A DNA stretch of 64,000 nt from Stappia stellulata DSM 5886. Lineage in GTDB: Bacteria > Pseudomonadota > Alphaproteobacteria > Rhizobiales > Stappiaceae. Both the position numbers and the translations under genes were made by a program. The stretch spans positions 62,001-126,000 of the forward strand of contig NZ_KE384082.1 in the NCBI RefSeq assembly GCF_000423705.1. Direction: 5' to 3'. The notes under the pieces were generated by a model that saw only the letters and a list, made by a program, of their open reading frames with translations, was not told the DNA's origin and searched no databases. Shown piece after piece: positions 3,925 through 55,418 of the stretch. Position 1 is the first letter of the stretch, and every line of letters starts with the position of its first letter.

Positions 3925-6900
3925 CTATTCCGCAGCTTCCATCACCGGACCTTCCGGTGTTTCCTCGCCAAGCTTGCCAAGCAACTGCGCGCGCTTGGCC
4001 GCCGCCTTTTCAAGGTTCGCCGCCTTCACCGGACCGAAGCCGCGCACCAGATCCGGCACCCGCGCGATCTCGACCAGCAGCCCGTAATTCGTCGTCCCGA
4101 CGTGTTTCGCGATCATCGACAGATCGGCCAGATAGCTTGAAACAAGCGCCCGTTCGGCCCGCCGTTCCGCCGTCCGCCCGAAGATGTCGAACGCCCCGCC
4201 GCGCAGGCCCTTCAGCCGCGCAAGCAGACCGAAGGCTGCAAAGATCCACGGACCGAAGGCGATCTTCTTCGGCCGGCCGGTCTTGGGGTCGGCTTCGCGG
4301 GAGATCAGCGGCGGCGCCAGCATGACCTTCAGCTTGCGCGGATCGGCGAATTGCGCCGCGAGCTTCGCCTTGAACGCGGGATCGGAATAAAGCCGCGCCA
4401 CCTCGTATTCGTCCTTGTAGGCCATGACCTTGTAGAGCATGTCGGCGGCGGTGCGCGTCAGACGCATGGTGCCGGCACCCTTCGCCTCGTCCGCCGTCCG
4501 CACCGCGTCAATGGCGGCAAGGAAGGTCTGCGCATAGGCCTCGTCCTGATAGGCGGTCAGTTCGCGGGCCAGAAACGCGATCCGCTCGCCAAGGTCCATA
4601 TCGTCGCCACCCGCGTTCTCGTCCGAAGACGGAAGTGCTGAGAGCAGCGCCTCGGGCGTGTCAGCCAGCACCCGTCCGGCGCGGAAGGCCGCGAGGTTCT
4701 TGTCGACCGCCGCGCCGTTCAGCCGGATCGCGGCTTCCAGCGCATCGGTGGAAATCGGCAGGCGTCCCGCCTGATGCGCCATGCCGACAAGCATCATGTT
4801 GGCGAAGATCGCATCGCCCAGCACCGCCTCGGCAACGCCGGCAACATCATGCGCATGAAACAGCGGACAGGCCTCCTCCAGCGTCTTGCGCATGCGCGCC
4901 TCATCGAAGGAGAGCGTCTGCTTCATGACGAATTCCGCCGTCGGCGCGACCCGCGAATTGGCGAAGCCGGCGGTCTTCTGGCGGTCGATCAGCGCAAGCT
5001 GTTCGGCATTGGTCGCAACCACCATGTCGGAGGCGATCAGCACATCGAGACTGGCGGTCGGGATGCGCGGTCCCTCGATGCTGCGTTCCGCCTGCGCGAA
5101 GCGGATATGCGACGTCACGGGACCGCCCTTTTGCGCAAGTCCGGTCATGTCGAGCGTCGAGGCCTGCTTGCCGTCCATATGCGCGGCCATTGCCAGAACG
5201 GCGGCGGTCGTGGTCACGCCGGCCCCGCCGATACCGCCGATCAGCACATTCAGCGTCGTCCCGAGATCCGCGACAGAGGCAGGGCCCAGCCTGGCGACCA
5301 GCGCGTCGATATCGATGCCCTTGCCGTCCGCCTTGCGCAGCTCCGCGCCTTCCACGAAGACGAAGGACGGGCAAAAGCCCTTCACACAGGAAAAATCCTT
5401 GTTGCAGGACGACTGGTTGATGCGCCGCTTTTCGCCGAAGGGCGTTGCGGCGGGTTCCACCGAAAGACAGTTGGACTGAACCGAGCAGTCGCCGCAGCCC
5501 TCGCAAACACGGTCGTTGATGAAGAGGCGCCGGTCCGGATCGGGAAAGCTGCCACGCTTGCGGCGGCGGCGCTTTTCAGCCGCACAGGTCTGATCGAAAA
5601 TCAGCGCGGTCACGCCCGAAATCGCCTGAAGCTCGGTCTGGACCTCCATGAGGTCATCCCGGTGGCGCACGTCGGTGCCCGGTGCCAGATCTGAGCGCCC
5701 GAGATAGGCGTCCGGCTCCTCGGTGACGACGACAACCCGCTCGACGCCCTCCGCTTCGAGCTGACGCGTGATCTGGGGAACGGTAAGCAGCCCGTCGACA
5801 GGCTGGCCACCGGTCATCGCCACCGCATCGTTGAAGAGGATCTTGTAGGTGATCGAGATCTTCGAGGCGACGGCCTGCCGGATCGCCAGGATCGCCGAGT
5901 GGAAATAGGTGCCGTCGCCGACATTGGCGAAGACATGGGTGTCATTGGCAAACGGCGATTGCCCGACCCAGAGCACGCCCTCGCCGCCCATGGCGATCTG
6001 GCCGTCGGTGGTTCGTCCCGCGACCTCGGTCATCGCATGGCAGCCGATGCCGGGCAGCGCCCTGGCGCCCTCCGGCACGACGGTGGAGGTGGAATGGGGG
6101 CAACCCGAGCAGAAATAGGGCACGCGCTGGGCGCGTTCCGCATGGCCCTGCGACCACATCACCTGCCGGTTCATCCGGTCGGCGACGGCATGCATCTCCT
6201 CGCTGACGAGATCGGACGGCAGGAAGGCGAGAAGTGCTGGGATGATTTCCGCGACAGCCAGTTCCAGCACGTCGGAGAGAAGCGGCGAGCCGTCCGGGCG
6301 TTTCTTGCCCCAGATCCGCGGGCGGGCCTGTTCCGGCCAGCCATAGGCGATTTCCTTGATCTGCGGTTCCAGGAACGCCCGCTTGTGTTCCACCACCAAA
6401 AGCCGTTCCAGCCCCCGGGCGAAACCGGCGAGCCCCTGCGGCTCCAGCGGCCAGGGCATCGCCACCTTGTAGATCGCCAGACCGATGTCGCGGGCGCGGG
6501 CCTCGTCGATCCCGATCATGTCGAAGGCCTGGCGCAGGTCACGGTAGGCCTTGCCCGTGGCGACGATGCCGATGCGCGGCTTGCGTGCGCCGAAGGCGAC
6601 CCGGTCCAGCCCGTTCGCCCGCACATAGGCCTGGGCGGCGGGAACGCGAATGTCGCGCAGGAGCCGTTCGGTCTCCAGCCGGTTGCCGAGAAGCAGCACA
6701 CGATTCAACTCGTCGTCCGCGCGCGGATCCTGCGACTTCGGCAAGACGAAGGACAGACGGCCCGGATCGACCGAGATCGTCGCCGAGGCATCCATCGTGT
6801 CGGCCAGACAGATCATCGCGCTCCAAAGCCCGGAAAACCGCGACATGGCGATGCCGTGCAAGCCGTAGTCGAGCACTTCCTGAATGTCGGACGGGTTGAG

Positions 6901-7419
6901 CACGGGCATTTCCACATGCTCGAAGAAGAACTCCGACTGCGCGGGCAGGATCGAGGACTTGGCGAGATGATCGTCGCCTGCGAGCGCCAGCACCCCGCCA
7001 TGCGCCGCCGTGCCGCTTGCGTTCGCCTGACGCAACACGTCGCCAGCCCGGTCGACACCGGGTGCCTTGCCGTACCAGATGCCGAAAACGCCGTCGTAAT
7101 CGCTGCCCTTGCCGTGATGAGCGACCTTCTGGGACCCCCAGACCGCCGTCGCGCCAAGCTCCTCGTTCACGCCGGGCTTGAACACGATGTTCGAGGCTTG
7201 CGTGTGGCGCCGGGCGCGCATCAGCTCGGTATCGTAGCCGGCCAGCGGCGACCCGCGATAACCGGAAACGAAGCCTCCGGTCTTCAGCCCGGCTGCCGCA
7301 TCCATGCGCGCCTGATCGAGCGGAAGCCGCACCAGCGCCTGGATTCCGGTCAGATAGACCCGCCCGAGGGGAGCGCTGTATTTGTCGTCGAGAGAGATGT
7401 GTCTGGCGATAACGTTCAT
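3925..7419 (-). CDS. Indolepyruvate ferredoxin oxidoreductase, fused alpha-beta-gamma form
   Basis: This 1164-residue protein oxidatively decarboxylates aryl-pyruvates (from Trp, Phe or Tyr transamination) to acyl-CoA with electrons passed to ferredoxin. The N-terminal pyruvate-oxidoreductase domain begins with GFVSGYRGSPL. A TPP-binding region lies near residue 436 (CPHSTSTVVPEG, IGCHAMTEVAGR). Cysteine clusters CEGCGDC (about residue 638) and CNKDFSCVKGFCP (about 670) bind 4Fe-4S. The gamma domain starts near residue 723 (GGIGGAGVTTTAAVLA). GGAGG seven bases before the ATG at 7419 fixes the start; an in-frame extension of 32 residues is less likely. An Lrp regulator is divergent from it. 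Confidence 0.92.
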   Translation of the reverse strand: MNVIARHISLDDKYSAPLGRVYLTGIQALVRLPLDQARMDAAAGLKTGGFVSGYRGSPLAGYDTELMRARRHTQASNIVFKPGVNEELGATAVWGSQKVAHHGKGSDYDGVFGIWYGKAPGVDRAGDVLRQANASGTAAHGGVLALAGDDHLAKSSILPAQSEFFFEHVEMPVLNPSDIQEVLDYGLHGIAMSRFSGLWSAMICLADTMDASATISVDPGRLSFVLPKSQDPRADDELNRVLLLGNRLETERLLRDIRVPAAQAYVRANGLDRVAFGARKPRIGIVATGKAYRDLRQAFDMIGIDEARARDIGLAIYKVAMPWPLEPQGLAGFARGLERLLVVEHKRAFLEPQIKEIAYGWPEQARPRIWGKKRPDGSPLLSDVLELAVAEIIPALLAFLPSDLVSEEMHAVADRMNRQVMWSQGHAERAQRVPYFCSGCPHSTSTVVPEGARALPGIGCHAMTEVAGRTTDGQIAMGGEGVLWVGQSPFANDTHVFANVGDGTYFHSAILAIRQAVASKISITYKILFNDAVAMTGGQPVDGLLTVPQITRQLEAEGVERVVVVTEEPDAYLGRSDLAPGTDVRHRDDLMEVQTELQAISGVTALIFDQTCAAEKRRRRKRGSFPDPDRRLFINDRVCEGCGDCSVQSNCLSVEPAATPFGEKRRINQSSCNKDFSCVKGFCPSFVFVEGAELRKADGKGIDIDALVARLGPASVADLGTTLNVLIGGIGGAGVTTTAAVLAMAAHMDGKQASTLDMTGLAQKGGPVTSHIRFAQAERSIEGPRIPTASLDVLIASDMVVATNAEQLALIDRQKTAGFANSRVAPTAEFVMKQTLSFDEARMRKTLEEACPLFHAHDVAGVAEAVLGDAIFANMMLVGMAHQAGRLPISTDALEAAIRLNGAAVDKNLAAFRAGRVLADTPEALLSALPSSDENAGGDDMDLGERIAFLARELTAYQDEAYAQTFLAAIDAVRTADEAKGAGTMRLTRTAADMLYKVMAYKDEYEVARLYSDPAFKAKLAAQFADPRKLKVMLAPPLISREADPKTGRPKKIAFGPWIFAAFGLLARLKGLRGGAFDIFGRTAERRAERALVSSYLADLSMIAKHVGTTNYGLLVEIARVPDLVRGFGPVKAANLEKAAAKRAQLLGKLGEETPEGPVMEAAE

Positions 7420-49409: not shown

Positions 49410-50351
49410 ATGACCATTGCCGCCTTTGGCGCCATTCATCTCGATACGCTCGCGCACGCGGACCGCGCAATCCTTCGCGACACGTCGACGCCGGCGCGCC
49501 TGACGACATGCCCGGGAGGGGTGGCCGCGAATGTCGCCCGGGCGCTGGCGCGGCTGTCCCCGCCCTGCGCCCTTGCCGGTGCGGTCGGTCGCGACAGCGA
49601 CGGCGACGCGCTCCTTGCAAGCCTTCGCGCGGAAGGCATCGACGTCTCGAGGGTCCATCGCTCCGATCACCCGACCGGGCGCTATCTCGCCCTGCACGAC
49701 CCCGACGGCGGGCTGGCGGCGGCCGTCGTCGACGGCACCATCACCGATGCGCTGCGACCGGGCGACCTCGACCTCGCCCATCCCGCGCTCGCCGAGGCGG
49801 ACCTCTGGTTCCTCGAGGCGAACCTGCCGCAGCCGGTCCTTGCGCAGATCGCCGCCGCAGCCGGACACCGTCTTCTGGCAGCCGATGCCGTCTCCATCGC
49901 CAAGGCACCGCGCCTCAACGAGGTTCTCGGCAGGCTGGACGTCCTGTTCTGCAACCGCGAGGAAGGCGCGGCCCTGCTCGGCCACGCGCGCGCCGGACCC
50001 GAGACCGCGCCGGAGGAGGATGCGCGGGAGATCGCCTGCGCGCTGGTCGCCCTGGGCGTCGGCGCCTGCCTCGTCAGCGACGGTCCCGCCCCGCTGGCGC
50101 TCGCCACGCCCGATGCTTGCCTGCATCTTGCCGTTGCGCCGGCGCCCGTGCGGGATGTCACGGGCGCCGGCGATGCGCTGATTGCCGGAACGCTTGCGGC
50201 CCGCGCCCGCGGATGGAACGTTGTCGACGCTGCCCGTGCCGGCCTCGCGGCGGCGCGCGTGACGGTGCAGGCACAAGGGGCCGCCCCCGCCACTCTCACC
50301 TGGGACGCCGTCATCCGCGAAAGCGCGACAATCGCCACACCGGTTTCGTAA
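49410..50351 (+). CDS. psuK: PfkB-family pseudouridine kinase
   Basis: This 313-residue ribokinase-fold protein has the two PfkB signatures: GGVAANVARALARL near residue 36 and DVTGAGDALIAGTLA near residue 248. It should phosphorylate pseudouridine to pseudouridine 5'-phosphate, which the next gene product cleaves. The assignment as pseudouridine kinase, not another sugar kinase, rests on its pairing with psuG 138 bases downstream. The ribosome signal before the ATG is weak. Confidence 0.85.
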   Translation: MTIAAFGAIHLDTLAHADRAILRDTSTPARLTTCPGGVAANVARALARLSPPCALAGAVGRDSDGDALLASLRAEGIDVSRVHRSDHPTGRYLALHDPDGGLAAAVVDGTITDALRPGDLDLAHPALAEADLWFLEANLPQPVLAQIAAAAGHRLLAADAVSIAKAPRLNEVLGRLDVLFCNREEGAALLGHARAGPETAPEEDAREIACALVALGVGACLVSDGPAPLALATPDACLHLAVAPAPVRDVTGAGDALIAGTLAARARGWNVVDAARAGLAAARVTVQAQGAAPATLTWDAVIRESATIATPVS

Positions 50352-50489
50352 CGGTCCGGTTACAGGCCGAAAAACCACGGGGCGCGACGACATGCGCCTC
50401 GACGCAGCGCCGCTCCCGCGCTTATAAGGGCGCCGGCGCGCAGCGCGCGGATCCCGCACTTGATCCACGCAACGGAACCCGAGGCATCC

Positions 50490-51461
50490 ATGTCGACCAG
50501 GCTCTCCCCTCTCCCCAATTCGCGGATCGTCCTGAGCACCGAGGTGGCGGATGCCCGCGCCAGCGGACAGGCGGTGGTCGCGCTGGAATCGACCATCATC
50601 ACCCATGGCATGCCCTGGCCGAAGAACGCGGAGACCGCGCGCACCGTGGAGAGCGACATCCGCGCGCAAGGCGCGGTCCCGGCGACCATCGCAGCGCTCG
50701 ACGGAAAACTGCACATCGGGCTTTCCGAGGGCGAGATGGAGCGCCTTGCCGAGGCAAAGGCCGCGATGAAATGCTCGCGCGCCGATCTGGCGTTTGCACT
50801 TGCGACCGGGCGCACCGGGTCCACGACGGTCGCGGCAACGATGATGGCAGCCGATGCCGCCGGCATCGCGGTCTTCGCGACGGGCGGCATCGGCGGGGTG
50901 CACCGGGGTGCGCAGGAAAGCTTCGACATTTCCGCCGACCTTGAGGAACTGGCGCGCACGCCTGTCTGCGTGGTCGCGGCCGGCGCCAAGGCGCTTCTCG
51001 ATCTGCCCAAGACGCTGGAGGTCCTGGAAACCCGGGGCGTTCCGGTCGTCGCCTATGGCACCGACGACTTTCCCGCCTTCTGGTCGCGCGTCAGCGGCCT
51101 GTCCGCGCCCTACCGGATGGACACGCCCGAGGAAATCTCCGCGCTTCTGGCCGTTCGGCGGGGTTTTCCGGGCCACGGCGGCGTGCTGGTGGCCAATCCC
51201 GTGCCCGAGACCGCCGAGATCCCCGCCAGCGAAATGGCCGGTGTCATCGATGCGGCCGTCGCCGAGGCCGCGAAACGCGGCATTTCCGGCAAGGATGTAA
51301 CGCCCTTCGTGCTCGCCCTGATCTACGAGCTGACCGGCGGTCGCAGTCTGGAGACCAACATCGCGCTGGTCCGCAACAACGCGCGGCTGGCCGCGCAAAT
51401 CGCGGTCTGCGACGCGCAGGCGGGCAAGGACGCAACACCTTCCGGATCATCTGGCGCATAA
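50490..51461 (+). CDS. psuG: Pseudouridine-5'-phosphate glycosidase
   Basis: The 323-residue enzyme splits pseudouridine 5'-phosphate to uracil and ribose 5-phosphate. Typical segments are VALESTIITHGMPWPKN, KCSRADLAFALATGRTGSTTV and FATGGIGGVHRGAQESFDIS, with the catalytic lysine and metal-binding residues. GAGG precedes the ATG at 50490. With psuK it forms a complete two-step pathway for recycling RNA-derived pseudouridine. Confidence 0.96.
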   Translation: MSTRLSPLPNSRIVLSTEVADARASGQAVVALESTIITHGMPWPKNAETARTVESDIRAQGAVPATIAALDGKLHIGLSEGEMERLAEAKAAMKCSRADLAFALATGRTGSTTVAATMMAADAAGIAVFATGGIGGVHRGAQESFDISADLEELARTPVCVVAAGAKALLDLPKTLEVLETRGVPVVAYGTDDFPAFWSRVSGLSAPYRMDTPEEISALLAVRRGFPGHGGVLVANPVPETAEIPASEMAGVIDAAVAEAAKRGISGKDVTPFVLALIYELTGGRSLETNIALVRNNARLAAQIAVCDAQAGKDATPSGSSGA

Positions 51462-51649: not shown

Positions 51650-52867
51650 ATGGCGGAGACAACGGCAATGTCGGAGACCGGAACGGCACCCCAGGCAGCG
51701 GCGGGAACCGCGCTGTCGCCCATGCAGTATCTGGATCGCGCGATGGGCGCCCTGCGGGACATGGGCCTGATGCCCGGAACCACCGCGGAAGCGCCGATCA
51801 ACGCCCTTCTGGAAAAGATCTCCGACCTGTCGCCGGACAAGATCGCGGTGATCACCCGCACGCTCGGACAGGCGCAGACCTTCAACGAAGTGGTGCGCAA
51901 CGAGATCCAGGCGATGTCCATCGGCGAGCGTTACGAGGCAATCACCGAGGCGTTCAACTCGATCCGCGACGACGCCAAGGCCATGGTCGACCAGCTCTCC
52001 GACGGCAAGATCTCCTTCATGGAAGGCCTGTCGAACAAGTGGCGCGACATGACGCGGGGCACGGTTTCCGACCGCTTCGGCAAGATCCGCGACACCTATC
52101 TGGATGTGGCGCGCGACACCAAGGACCAGATCGAGCGCGAACAGCGCATCCTGGAAGCCTACCGCGATTTCCGCGGCGCGCTGAAACAGGCGGAGGTCCT
52201 GGCGCTGGAGGTTCTGCAAACCGCCGAAGCCAAACTCGATACCGCCAAGGCCGACCTTGAAGAGGCCAACAAGACGGTCGAGGCCCATGCCGGCGACGAC
52301 GCGGCCGCCAAGGCGCGCCTGGAGCTTGCCCGCGACGAGAAGATGCGCGTGATGCAGGACGAGGAGAAGCGCTATCAGGTCGCCAAGGACCTCTCCGACA
52401 ACCTGACGATCGGCTACAACACGTCGGAAGTCATCATGGCGCGGCTGATGCAGACCACCAACGCCAAGGAGCGGGTCTATTCGCAGGCGGTGAGCTTCTT
52501 CTCCACCAATGATTCGGTGCTGACGGCGCTGAATGCCTCCTTCACCGGCCTTCAGGGGCTGCATGAATCCACCGAAACCCTGAACGCGATGAAGGACGGC
52601 GTGTCCAAGTCGCTGGAGACACTCGCCGAAATCGGCGACGCGGTCCAGGAAGCCGCCCTCAGGGCCGGCTACGGACCGACCGTTCAGGCGGCGGCCGTCA
52701 AGAAGCTGGTGGATTCGGTGATCAACTTCCAGGTCAACTCGCGCGAGATCATCAGCGAGATGCGCAAGATGTCGACCAAGAATTCCGAGGAAATCCGCGA
52801 TGCGGTCGAGGACGGCAAGCGCCGGCTCGCCAAACTCGCGGCCCAGGGCAACATGATCGGCGCCTGA
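51650..52867 (+). CDS. Long helical protein, distantly TelA-like, first gene of a three-gene operon
   Basis: The 405-residue protein is almost wholly helical, with charged heptad-like stretches (for example EQRILEAYRDFRGALKQAE and AKADLEEANKTVEAH) and no membrane segment or signal. The C-terminal half, with SFFSTNDSVLTALNASFTGL and LNAMKDGVSKSLETLAEI, resembles by eye the layout of TelA-type toxic anion resistance proteins, but the similarity is weak and I do not claim the family. GAGGA lies before the ATG. A membrane protein and a coiled-coil protein follow on the same strand. Confidence 0.7.
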   Translation: MAETTAMSETGTAPQAAAGTALSPMQYLDRAMGALRDMGLMPGTTAEAPINALLEKISDLSPDKIAVITRTLGQAQTFNEVVRNEIQAMSIGERYEAITEAFNSIRDDAKAMVDQLSDGKISFMEGLSNKWRDMTRGTVSDRFGKIRDTYLDVARDTKDQIEREQRILEAYRDFRGALKQAEVLALEVLQTAEAKLDTAKADLEEANKTVEAHAGDDAAAKARLELARDEKMRVMQDEEKRYQVAKDLSDNLTIGYNTSEVIMARLMQTTNAKERVYSQAVSFFSTNDSVLTALNASFTGLQGLHESTETLNAMKDGVSKSLETLAEIGDAVQEAALRAGYGPTVQAAAVKKLVDSVINFQVNSREIISEMRKMSTKNSEEIRDAVEDGKRRLAKLAAQGNMIGA

Positions 52868-53005
52868 GCAAGCCTCCGCGCCGACCACCGAACAGCGGCC
52901 GCGACGGTTCCACCGCCCGGCCGCAACCGTGACGGACCGACCCGCAGGCGGTATGGCCACCGACCGGGCGGGATTGCATGACAGCTGTTGAACGGGAACG
53001 AGTGC

Positions 53006-53944
53006 ATGCCCTCCGACACCGCCGCCAAGAAGGCGCCGCTCGATGAACTGATGATGGCCATGGACGTCGTGGACACGCTGCGCCACGACGAAAGGATCGC
53101 GCTCAAGGAGCTCGACGCCGACCAGCGCGACGAGCAGATGATCGAGCGCCTGCGCGATCTCTACCGAAGCCAGGGCATCGAGGTGCCCGACCGGATCCTG
53201 CAGGAAGGCGTCGAAAGCCTGAAGCAGAACCGTTTTGTCTACACCCCGCCGGCCGCCGGTTTCCAGCGCACGCTGGCGCTGGTCTATGTGACCCGGGCGC
53301 GCTGGGGCAAGGCGCTGTTGATCGCGCTTGTGCTTCTGGTCGCCGCCGTGCTGGCCTGGCGCTTCCTGGTGGTCGCACCGCGCGAACGCGCCGCGGAAGC
53401 CTTGCGCATCGAAATGAGCGAGACGCTTCCGGCGGAGGCGACGGCGCTCCGCACCCGGATTTCCGATCTGGCGGACGTCGAGGCCGCGCGCACGCAGGCG
53501 GAAACACTGGCGGCGATCGCCACATCGGCGGCCGCGGCAGGCGATGCGCAGGCCGCGCGCGGCGCGATCGCGGATCTTCGCGCGCTCGAGGCACGGCTGC
53601 GGGAAACCTATGACGTGCGTATCGTGTCGCGGCCGGGCGTACCGACCGGCGTTACCCGCATCCCCGACGTCAACCGCGCCACGCGCAACTACTACCTTGT
53701 CGTGGAAGCGGTCACGCCCGATGGCAAGGTGCTGCCGCGCGAGATTGTCTCGGAGGAAGACGGCGAAGCGACCACGGTCGACATCTGGGCTCAGCGCGTT
53801 CCCAAACCCACGTTCGACGCCGTGCGTCAGGACAAGGAAGACGACGGCATCGTCCAGAGCGTCGTCCTGGGCACGAAGGCGAGCGGGCGTCTCCAGCCCG
53901 TCTGGAATGCCGCGGTCGAGACCGGGGCGATTACGAAATGGTAG
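53006..53944 (+). CDS. Single-pass membrane protein (DUF6384-like), second gene of the operon
   Basis: The 312-residue protein has a charged N-terminal part of about 100 residues (LDELMMAMDVVDTLRHDER, then DRILQEGVESLKQN), one membrane helix at about 103-123 (ALLIALVLLVAAVLAWRFLV) and a C-terminal part with a coiled segment (EAARTQAETLAAIATSAAAAG) followed by a beta-rich domain (YYLVVEAVTPDGKVLP). It fits the family I know as DUF6384, function unknown. The start at 53006 is preferred to a TTG at 52988. It lies between the two helical genes. Confidence 0.72.
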   Translation: MPSDTAAKKAPLDELMMAMDVVDTLRHDERIALKELDADQRDEQMIERLRDLYRSQGIEVPDRILQEGVESLKQNRFVYTPPAAGFQRTLALVYVTRARWGKALLIALVLLVAAVLAWRFLVVAPRERAAEALRIEMSETLPAEATALRTRISDLADVEAARTQAETLAAIATSAAAAGDAQAARGAIADLRALEARLRETYDVRIVSRPGVPTGVTRIPDVNRATRNYYLVVEAVTPDGKVLPREIVSEEDGEATTVDIWAQRVPKPTFDAVRQDKEDDGIVQSVVLGTKASGRLQPVWNAAVETGAITKW

Positions 53945-53966
53945 CGTTTAGGCGGGAACAGCACAG

Positions 53967-55418
53967 ATGGTGAGTGGACGCCAGACCCTCGGGTCCATCG
54001 AACGCACGCTCAACGACCTGCGTGGCGAAGAATCGCGGCTGAAACGGCGGGTCGAGCAGTCGATGCGCGAGCTCAACGACATGCGTGCGCAGGAACTGGA
54101 AGCCTACCGCGAGCTTGCCCGTTTCCGGGCACGGGACGGGAGCGACCGCGCCTTCGGCCAGCGCATCGACAAGGACGAGGCCAGGGCGCGTCACCATCTG
54201 GAACAGCGCGAACTTGCGCTTTCCGCCCTGCGTGCGGAACGCGAGACGCTCGAAAGCGACATCGCCGATGCCACAGAGGAACGCCGGCGCCTGACCCGCG
54301 AACGCGACGCGGCCAGCGACCGGCTGGACGGCATTCTGGAGGATGTCGACGCGCGGCTCGAGGCCGACCCCGCCTTCCAGGCACAGCAGCAGGCCGTCGA
54401 GGCCGCGCGCGCCATGGCAGCCGCCGCCCGCAACAAGGCGGACCAGGCCAAGGCCGACCGCGCCGAAAAGGGCGCGGACTACGAGAGCGATCCGTTGTTC
54501 CTCTATCTGTGGCAGCGCGGGTTTGCGACACCGGACTATGCCTCGCGCGGGATCGTGCGCATGCTCGACCGCTGGGTCGCGGGGCTGGTGCGCTATTCCG
54601 AGGCGCGTCCGAACTACGCCATGCTGGTGGAGATCCCGGAACGCCTGGACGCCTATGCGGGCGACAGGGAGGCGGAGGTCGAGATCGAAATGACAAGACT
54701 TGGCGCGCTCTCCCGCCAGGCGGCGGCCGAGATCGCGGGCGAGGATCTCGCCGCCACCATCGAGGCGGCCGAGACCGCGATCGAGGATCTGACAGCCCAG
54801 CTGGAGAGGCTTGAAACCGCGCTTCGCGAGCTGGCGCCGCGCGAAGAGCGTCTCCATGCCGGCGAGGACGAGGACTACAAATCCGCCGAAGAAGCGTTGC
54901 TACGCTCGCTGCGCTCCGAGGAACTCGCCACGCTTTGGAAGGAAGCGCGGGCCACGCCCTCGCCGCAGGACGAGCGCATCGTCCGCCGCCTGCAGGATCT
55001 CGACGCCACAATCGCGCGGACGACAGATGAGATCGAGGCGGACCAACGCGATCTGCGCAGCCTCGCCGGGCGCCGCGACGAACTCGCCAAGGTCGCGCGG
55101 CGCTTCCGCTCCAAACGCTACGACACCTGGGATTCCACCTTCGACGACGACAGCCTGACCGGTGTTCTTCTGGGTGAGCTTGCCAAGGGTGCCCTGTCCG
55201 GCGCCGACTACTGGACGCGCGCCGAGAAGTCCCGCCGCCGCCGCAAGCGTCACGGCCGCGATGTCGGTTTTCCCGGCGGCATCGGCCTGCCCGGCTCGAT
55301 GGGCGGAACGTTTCCCGGATCGGACGGCGGTTTCGGCGGCGGCGGTTTCGGCGGCGGCGGCTTCGGCAGCGGAGACAGTTTCGGCGGTGGCGACTTCAAG
55401 ACCGGCGATACGTTCTAA
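53967..55418 (+). CDS. Coiled-coil protein with glycine-rich tail, third gene of the operon
   Basis: The 483-residue protein is a long series of coiled coils (SIERTLNDLRGEESRLKRRV, then LSALRAERETLESDIADATE; and later DLTAQLERLETALRELAPRE). A central block with DPLFLYLWQRGFATPDYASRG is more globular. The C-terminal 61 residues switch to a basic run (RRRRKRHGRD) and a low-complexity Gly/Phe/Asp tail with repeated GGGGF units. No signal or membrane helix is present. It begins 22 bases after the membrane protein gene. No family is recognised. Confidence 0.72.
   Translation: MVSGRQTLGSIERTLNDLRGEESRLKRRVEQSMRELNDMRAQELEAYRELARFRARDGSDRAFGQRIDKDEARARHHLEQRELALSALRAERETLESDIADATEERRRLTRERDAASDRLDGILEDVDARLEADPAFQAQQQAVEAARAMAAAARNKADQAKADRAEKGADYESDPLFLYLWQRGFATPDYASRGIVRMLDRWVAGLVRYSEARPNYAMLVEIPERLDAYAGDREAEVEIEMTRLGALSRQAAAEIAGEDLAATIEAAETAIEDLTAQLERLETALRELAPREERLHAGEDEDYKSAEEALLRSLRSEELATLWKEARATPSPQDERIVRRLQDLDATIARTTDEIEADQRDLRSLAGRRDELAKVARRFRSKRYDTWDSTFDDDSLTGVLLGELAKGALSGADYWTRAEKSRRRRKRHGRDVGFPGGIGLPGSMGGTFPGSDGGFGGGGFGGGGFGSGDSFGGGDFKTGDTF

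Follow-up and report, generated by a model that had tools for sequence, protein, structure and literature searches.

A linked three-gene module encoding a DUF6384 membrane protein and two predicted helical partners in Stappia stellulata

The three genes and their products

The window analyzed here is a 64,000-nucleotide stretch of the genome of Stappia stellulata DSM 5886 (contig NZ_KE384082.1, positions 62,001 to 126,000). It carries three adjacent genes, here called g1, g2 and g3 and together the trio (Table 1), which an initial annotation had described as a co-directional set; the corresponding open reading frames (ORFs) were all found on the forward strand. In the window, 138 bases separate g1 from g2 and 22 bases separate g2 from g3. 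The g1, g2 and g3 genes were 96%, 90% and 91% identical, respectively, to those at the S. stellulata SN27-3 locus (L022). The ratio of nonsynonymous to synonymous substitutions (dN/dS) against this locus was 0.07–0.12 for the trio genes, and against two more distant loci (L023 and L006) it was 0.10–0.33. Because the ratios against the three relatives were confined to 0.07–0.33, g1, g2 and g3 look like real genes under purifying selection. We also fetched 32 loci by g2 (20 plus 12, including our own genome, some from the same species). Identity to the most distant of these (L001, L004 and L028–L032) fell to approximately 65–70% for g1, 43–52% for g2 and 32–42% for g3, and g1 was the most conserved of the three in the locus alignments.

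The product of g2 matched DUF6384 (PF19911) at 443 bits against a cut-off of 25 bits (E 6.5e-133), over positions 2–308 of the 308-position model. The protein had been called DUF6384-like, and is a true, full-length member of the family. Hydropathy analysis also agreed with its description as a single-pass membrane protein, since one hydrophobic segment was detected in g2 and none of membrane type in g1 or g3. The g2 protein is laid out as an N-terminal region, a single transmembrane segment, a helical stalk and a C-terminal beta domain ending in T-x-W, the beta domain being modeled by AlphaFold2 (AF2) with good confidence (block means of 81–95 within residues 200–312). When lysine and arginine residues were counted on the two sides of the membrane segment, the N-terminal side was the richer in 49 of 78 g2 proteins, equal in 26 and poorer in three; by the positive-inside rule, an N-in/C-out topology is predicted. 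The T-x-W sequence, with no more than nine residues after it, closes 71 of 79 distinct g2 ORFs, and seven of the remaining eight end in W. In the g2 proteins of Pseudomonas plasmids and of a phage (see below), the stretch between the membrane segment and the beta domain is longer. No match to g2 was found in the PDB at E≤0.001, and the structures retrieved at a second look mainly covered residues 126–202, that is, the helical stalk, and therefore left the beta fold without comment. DUF6384 is a named family without a function, and a literature search found no paper mentioning it. A separate locus (L083, 5550–7562), in a genome that also carries a normal trio (G522), encodes a 128-amino-acid (aa) DUF6384-like beta domain in which no membrane segment is visible. 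The next gene there is g3-like and has GGFQTSGGF repeated in its tail, and g1 is absent.

The partners of g2 lie outside every curated family that we found: neither g1 nor g3 matched a Pfam or NCBIfam family above the cut-off. The soluble g1 protein is predicted to be entirely helical, with long helices, and AF2 modeled it at low confidence as a long bundle of helices (mean predicted local distance difference test, pLDDT, 62.5). Foldseek returned no match to this fold at E≤0.001, and a search for solved relatives of g1, g2 and the toxic-anion resistance protein TelA yielded none that was usable. Plasmid homologues of g1 bear record names such as “cell surface protein” and “merozoite surface protein 3b”. 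These names look like annotation carry-over and not like indications of function, and a literature search found no paper on a “merozoite surface protein 3b” in Pseudomonas. One further genome (G447) contains a solo g1-like gene (L082, approximately 6085–7086) that is 26% identical to g1; g2 and g3 were not found in that genome.

The g3 protein is a coiled-coil protein with a Gly/Phe tail and a conserved core between its coiled coils. Its only matches in PADLOC (the best to LmuB, 20.9 bits, E 4.4e-5) and PHROGs were weak. The basic run and the GGGGF-type tail reported earlier were both confirmed, the tail being conserved at its end. The terminal peptide is DFKTGDTF in the window, GFSSSDSF in the phage and GFSSSDSF, TWDTSDRF or SFSTSDSF in Pseudomonas. 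Of 69 distinct g3 ORFs, a set that includes near-identical species and both pieces of one frameshifted gene, 61 fitted the pattern [FWYI]x[TSN][GS]xx[FLIVM]-stop; the remaining ORFs of these loci, a background of 2952 that includes chance ORFs, gave only two matches. With a slightly stricter form of the pattern, three of the 69 tails contained three copies, 24 contained two, 36 contained one and six contained none. When 41 genomes were searched with a DNA pattern for GFxTGxxF-stop, 20 matches were obtained, of which 19 lay at the g3 position and one elsewhere (G018); our own genome is missed because its tail peptide starts with D. Since 19 of the 20 matches fell at the g3 position, the peptide is a feature of g3 and does not represent a sorting tag common to many proteins. 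A general sorting signal, for which there was at most one match per genome, was thus rejected. At two loci of a close relative (L007 and L021), g3 is split between two frames by an apparent frameshift, which may be a sequencing error, and g1 and g2 are intact.

The initial annotation had also stated that none of the products has a catalytic motif, and searches of Pfam, NCBIfam, PADLOC and PHROGs agreed with this. The helical make-up tethered to the membrane that it had proposed is likewise supported by prediction, namely hydropathy, the AF2 models and the topology count.

Table 1. Coordinates of the trio genes and of features of their products in the window
Feature	Position	Strand	Description	Basis
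g1	51650-52867	+	405 aa	ORF
g2	53006-53944	+	312 aa; DUF6384 one-pass membrane protein	ORF
g2 transmembrane segment	53309-53377	+	approximately residues 102-124	hydropathy
g2 C-terminal beta domain	53603-53941	+	residues 200-312, predicted periplasmic	AF2, positive-inside count
g3	53967-55418	+	483 aa, coiled coil	ORF
g3 conserved core	54414-54656	+	approximately residues 150-230, between coiled coils; LFxYLWxRG...LDRWVA...ARPNYAML	alignments
g3 basic run	55230-55259	+	SRRRRKRHGR	sequence
g3 internal tail-motif copy	55359-55382	+	GFGSGDSF	sequence
g3 terminal tail motif	55392-55415	+	DFKTGDTF, extreme C terminus	sequence, pattern count

Upstream of the trio, at 49410–51461 of the window, Pfam matches identified a PfkB-type kinase gene and an Indigoidine_A-type gene, a pair that we presume to serve pseudouridine catabolism and to be unrelated to the trio.

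Linkage of the trio in chromosomes, plasmids and a phage

The order g1-g2-g3 was observed in all 32 loci fetched by g2. In an order-level sample, an even set of 249 genomes, g1 was detected in 66 genomes, DUF6384 in 65 over the cut-off (67 at E≤0.001, with G044 and G458 below the cut-off) and g3 in 67 at E≤1e-3; 64 genomes contained all three genes. Coordinates showed that g1 and DUF6384, which occurred together in 65 genomes, were adjacent in all 65, and g3 accompanied them in 64, the 65th locus being cut by a contig end. The exceptions to linkage were a contig that ends in g2 (G498), a contig that starts in g3 (G356), the diverged solo g1 of G447, and two g3 matches that were weak coiled-coil hits (G364 and G402). 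Across loci, the three genes are separated by short gaps or overlap. Their flanking genes are common to near relatives only and differ between families; no conserved fourth gene was seen among 25 trio-bearing loci compared, and of seven downstream genes compared, none was common to all, with a single pair alike (L155 and L159). All 14 genomes of the same genus that were searched carry the trio. Outside the order it is rare: the class sample contained it in 2 of 289 genomes (our own and G151, the latter with two copies), and the phylum sample in 2 of 299 (our own and one of its family). Two copies per genome were observed in G404 (L076 and L077) and G151 (L080 and L081). These data indicate that g1-g2-g3 is a near-obligate module. 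The proposal of a three-gene unit was thereby supported by co-occurrence and adjacency, and the genes were not scattered in relatives.

Divergent copies of the trio were found on plasmids. A tblastn search with g1 detected 11 of 72,556 plasmid records, with 36–69% identity, and another query of the plasmids added none to these 11. Their hosts are Microvirga, Bradyrhizobium, Methylorubrum extorquens AM1, Rhizobium and seven Pseudomonas, and the plasmids are very large (0.3–1.4 Mb). In each of the nine plasmid regions read, the order was again g1-g2-g3, and models built from the chromosome-side alignments alone (A1–A3) found all three genes in all nine, the weakest g3 match having an E value of 1.1e-27. 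The g2 proteins of three scanned plasmids (two from Pseudomonas and one from Rhizobium) also matched DUF6384.

The same search of 50,697 phage records returned two, both of Yersinia phage phiR1-37, a 262-kb jumbo phage, with 41% identity. Here the trio corresponds to g190-g191-g192, in the same order. The A1–A3 models identified g190 as g1 (E 9.2e-115) and g191 as g2 (E 8.1e-23), the latter also matching DUF6384 (E 4.7e-26), and g192 was called g3 because of its place, make-up and tail. The phiR1-37 record notes some of the neighboring genes as structural, g190–g192 not being among them, and a term search of a 2026 paper on this phage (PMC13030884) did not return gp190–gp192, g190 or g191. A scan of IMG/VR with short patterns revealed one viral relative, on a contig as long as phiR1-37. 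As for the plasmids, pMPPla107 (NZ_CP031226.1) encodes the hypothetical protein SkaA, which PMC8628069 links with sensitivity toward an inhibitor that is secreted. Literature searches, which took in passages of PMC13030884, PMC8628069 and PMC8544880, turned up no account of the trio as a set, in agreement with the initial annotation, and no known pathway was found to contain it.

Comparison with known systems

The initial annotation had noted a weak TelA-like layout in g1. TelA is a soluble, all-helical protein, and its usual partner is XpaC. One alternative takes the trio for a TelA-type stress system that has diverged strongly, in which g1 would be a remote TelA homologue and g2 would occupy the place of XpaC, and which would protect the envelope against toxic oxyanions or a related stress. 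TelA/KlaA (PF05816) is like g1 in its length of approximately 400 aa and in a global profile similarity over the full length. When 42 g1 and 14 TelA sequences were aligned as profiles in global mode, both full lengths were covered with a score of 27.8 (E 3e-5, probability 47%), with low per-position confidence. None of 125 permuted or shuffled TelA decoys reached this score; the best was a circular permutation at 23.3, a type of decoy that keeps much of the original order, and the best block shuffle scored 19.2. Reversed profiles scored no higher than 4.8, and a control alignment of PspA with TelA scored 16.8. Because the margin over the decoys was modest (27.8 vs 23.3) and PspA also reached 16.8, part of the g1–TelA signal may be generic to helical proteins. 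The other tests gave no such signal. PF05816 had no match in our own genome at E≤0.001, the Pfam matches of g1 up to E 10 included no TelA, and PF05816 was not among the 25 of 45 matched families listed for 17 g1 proteins. Default local hhalign comparison of g1 with TelA gave probabilities of 5.2% (17 g1 rows), 4.8% (15 broad rows) and 5.7% (42 rows). Membership of g1 in the TelA family was rejected by these Pfam profile and default profile–profile tests. What stands of the TelA-like layout is the full-length global resemblance, which hints at a very distant kinship and not at membership.

The surroundings of g1 bear on the same alternative. XpaC resembles g2 as a membrane protein that accompanies a soluble helical one, but g2 differs from it by matching DUF6384, and a check for XpaC was negative: Pfam matches of g2 up to E 10 comprised only DUF6384, COX6C (0.76) and GspL_C (2.4). 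In six TelA neighborhoods inspected by eye, no copy of the g2 and g3 arrangement was seen. The absence of a TelA match from our own genome would suit a diverged TelA-type system, but another genome (G491) carries both TelA and the trio. A response to toxic ions, which the initial annotation had considered, was not established, and its sole link to tellurite-type stress genes is StiP, described in Pfam as a tellurite-like stress resistance cysteine protease. The StiP gene lies 2.3–2.4 kb upstream of the trio on two Pseudomonas megaplasmids (pMPPla107 and pBASL58). This association is weak, because StiP is approximately 23 kb from the trio on a third plasmid (FeN3W) and is present on 2566 plasmids. 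On Pseudomonas megaplasmids, the StiP block recurs with a peptidyl-tRNA hydrolase gene (L155, 6576–7643; L159, 6468–7538; L185, 17454–18509). As a whole, we consider a diverged TelA-type system unlikely, although it fares best among the alternatives.

PspA/IM30 (PF04012) resembles the proposed g1 in being cytosolic and helical and in acting at the inner membrane together with a partner that is itself a membrane protein. Our own genome (G000) contained no match to this family at E≤0.001, and none was present in the list of g1 matches. Profile comparison of g1 with PspA was weak (local E 0.035, global E 0.85).

Alternatively, the trio might serve large replicons or intracellular organization, as a coiled-coil and membrane anchor that positions DNA, the division machinery or a phage factory. 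Its divergent copies on plasmids of 0.3–1.4 Mb and in a 262-kb phage are consistent with this, as are weak coiled-coil hits of g3 to SMC, RacA-type and ZapB proteins. However, any coiled coil typically gives such hits, the majority of the copies found lie in genomes of a single order in which approximately three of every four sampled genomes have no trio, and the phage record does not note the three genes as structural; this role is, in our judgment, quite improbable. Still less probable is a module for defense against phages or for conflict between elements, which would spread on mobile elements and would have been captured by a phage. The patchy distribution in the order (66 of 249 genomes), the copies on plasmids and in a phage, and the variation of the flanks between families would fit such a module. 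Against it, PADLOC returned nothing for g1 and g2 and only weak coiled-coil matches for g3, LmuB being the best, all 14 genomes of the genus searched have the trio, and family searches found no enzymatic or toxin domain. Finally, a tripartite pore system with g1 as a ClyA-type alpha-helical pore protein is very doubtful. The long-helix arrangement of the low-confidence g1 model is like that of ClyA-type toxins, and Foldseek gave no match at E≤0.001. These toxins have a hydrophobic membrane-inserting head; g1 has no strongly hydrophobic segment, its highest 19-residue hydropathy being 0.77, far below that of a membrane segment (no ClyA-type yardstick was set alongside).

A candidate membrane-anchored scaffold

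The reading that we favor, with confidence and doubt about evenly balanced, is that the trio encodes a single three-protein complex of the inner membrane, a helical scaffold of g1 and g3 anchored by g2, which would support the envelope under stress. In this model, g2 would be the anchor, with its conserved N-terminal region in the cytosol, one membrane crossing and a small beta domain in the periplasm. The long helical bundle of g1 would form a cytosolic core that assembles on the N-terminal region of g2. The g3 protein would act as a coiled-coil adaptor, its flexible Gly/Ser tail usually bearing one or two copies of F-x-[TS]-[GS]-x-x-F, the last at the C terminus, and docking of this tail onto a partner inside the complex would cross-link the scaffold. 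Like scaffolds of the TelA or PspA type, such a complex would most likely serve to stabilize or remodel the membrane or envelope during stress. In favor of this reading are the linkage and common order of the trio genes, their short gaps or overlaps, the N-in/C-out count for g2, the tail motif, the long helices predicted for g1 and the absence of PspA- and TelA-family matches from our own genome. Distances of the three genes also correlate (r 0.88–0.95 among 47 distinct full-length loci of 82), which fits joint inheritance. Gene linkage and tail conservation are directly documented, the helical, membrane and beta parts and their topology are predicted, and we infer the physical complex, the contacts between its parts and the role in stress; for the last, and above all for toxic ions, the indications are weak. 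A bolder version, which we hold only tentatively, is that the trio is an undescribed self-contained scaffold machine, common to cells and a jumbo phage, assembled through a new C-terminal docking peptide of g3 that is often repeated upstream, and without true relatives among the known envelope-stress systems.

Several observations weigh against the favored scaffold. The AF2 model of g1 is of poor quality (mean pLDDT 62.5), and 12 of the 78 g2 proteins fall below the hydropathy threshold of 1.6. The correlation of gene distances is confounded by shared descent. The phage g192 is only 12% identical to the g3 of the window and is missed by the A3 model; a wider model detects it (E 3.9e-11), with a composition correction of 45.6 that exceeds the score of 40.1. 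With neither a visible membrane segment nor g1, the L083 locus is hard to reconcile with a beta domain that is strictly periplasmic or with a g1 that is always needed. No EcfG-type promoter was found upstream of g1 at any of 62 loci, and RpoH-like sites occurred at four of the 62 (6%), compared with 3% of random windows. Neither of the scaffold proteins named above is exclusive with the trio, since TelA occurs in 8 of 249 order genomes, one of which carries the trio (G491), and PspA in 7 of 41 relatives, two of which are trio-bearing (G014 and G019). Mutual exclusion between TelA and the trio was considered and dropped, eight TelA genomes being too few, and exclusion between PspA and the trio was dropped as too confounded by descent.

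That the trio is strictly co-inherited in bacteria, on giant plasmids and apparently in a jumbo phage points to three proteins that depend on one another and to a job from which both a virus and a cell can benefit. DUF6384, a Pfam family free of function, thereby gains fixed partners (g1 and g3) and an anatomy, and three hypothetical genes therefore become one testable system, in which the conserved tail peptide of g3 provides an exact site for testing. Should the trio prove to be a TelA-like scaffold, this would help in understanding how the inner membrane is protected in genomes that lack TelA and PspA, including that of S. stellulata DSM 5886.

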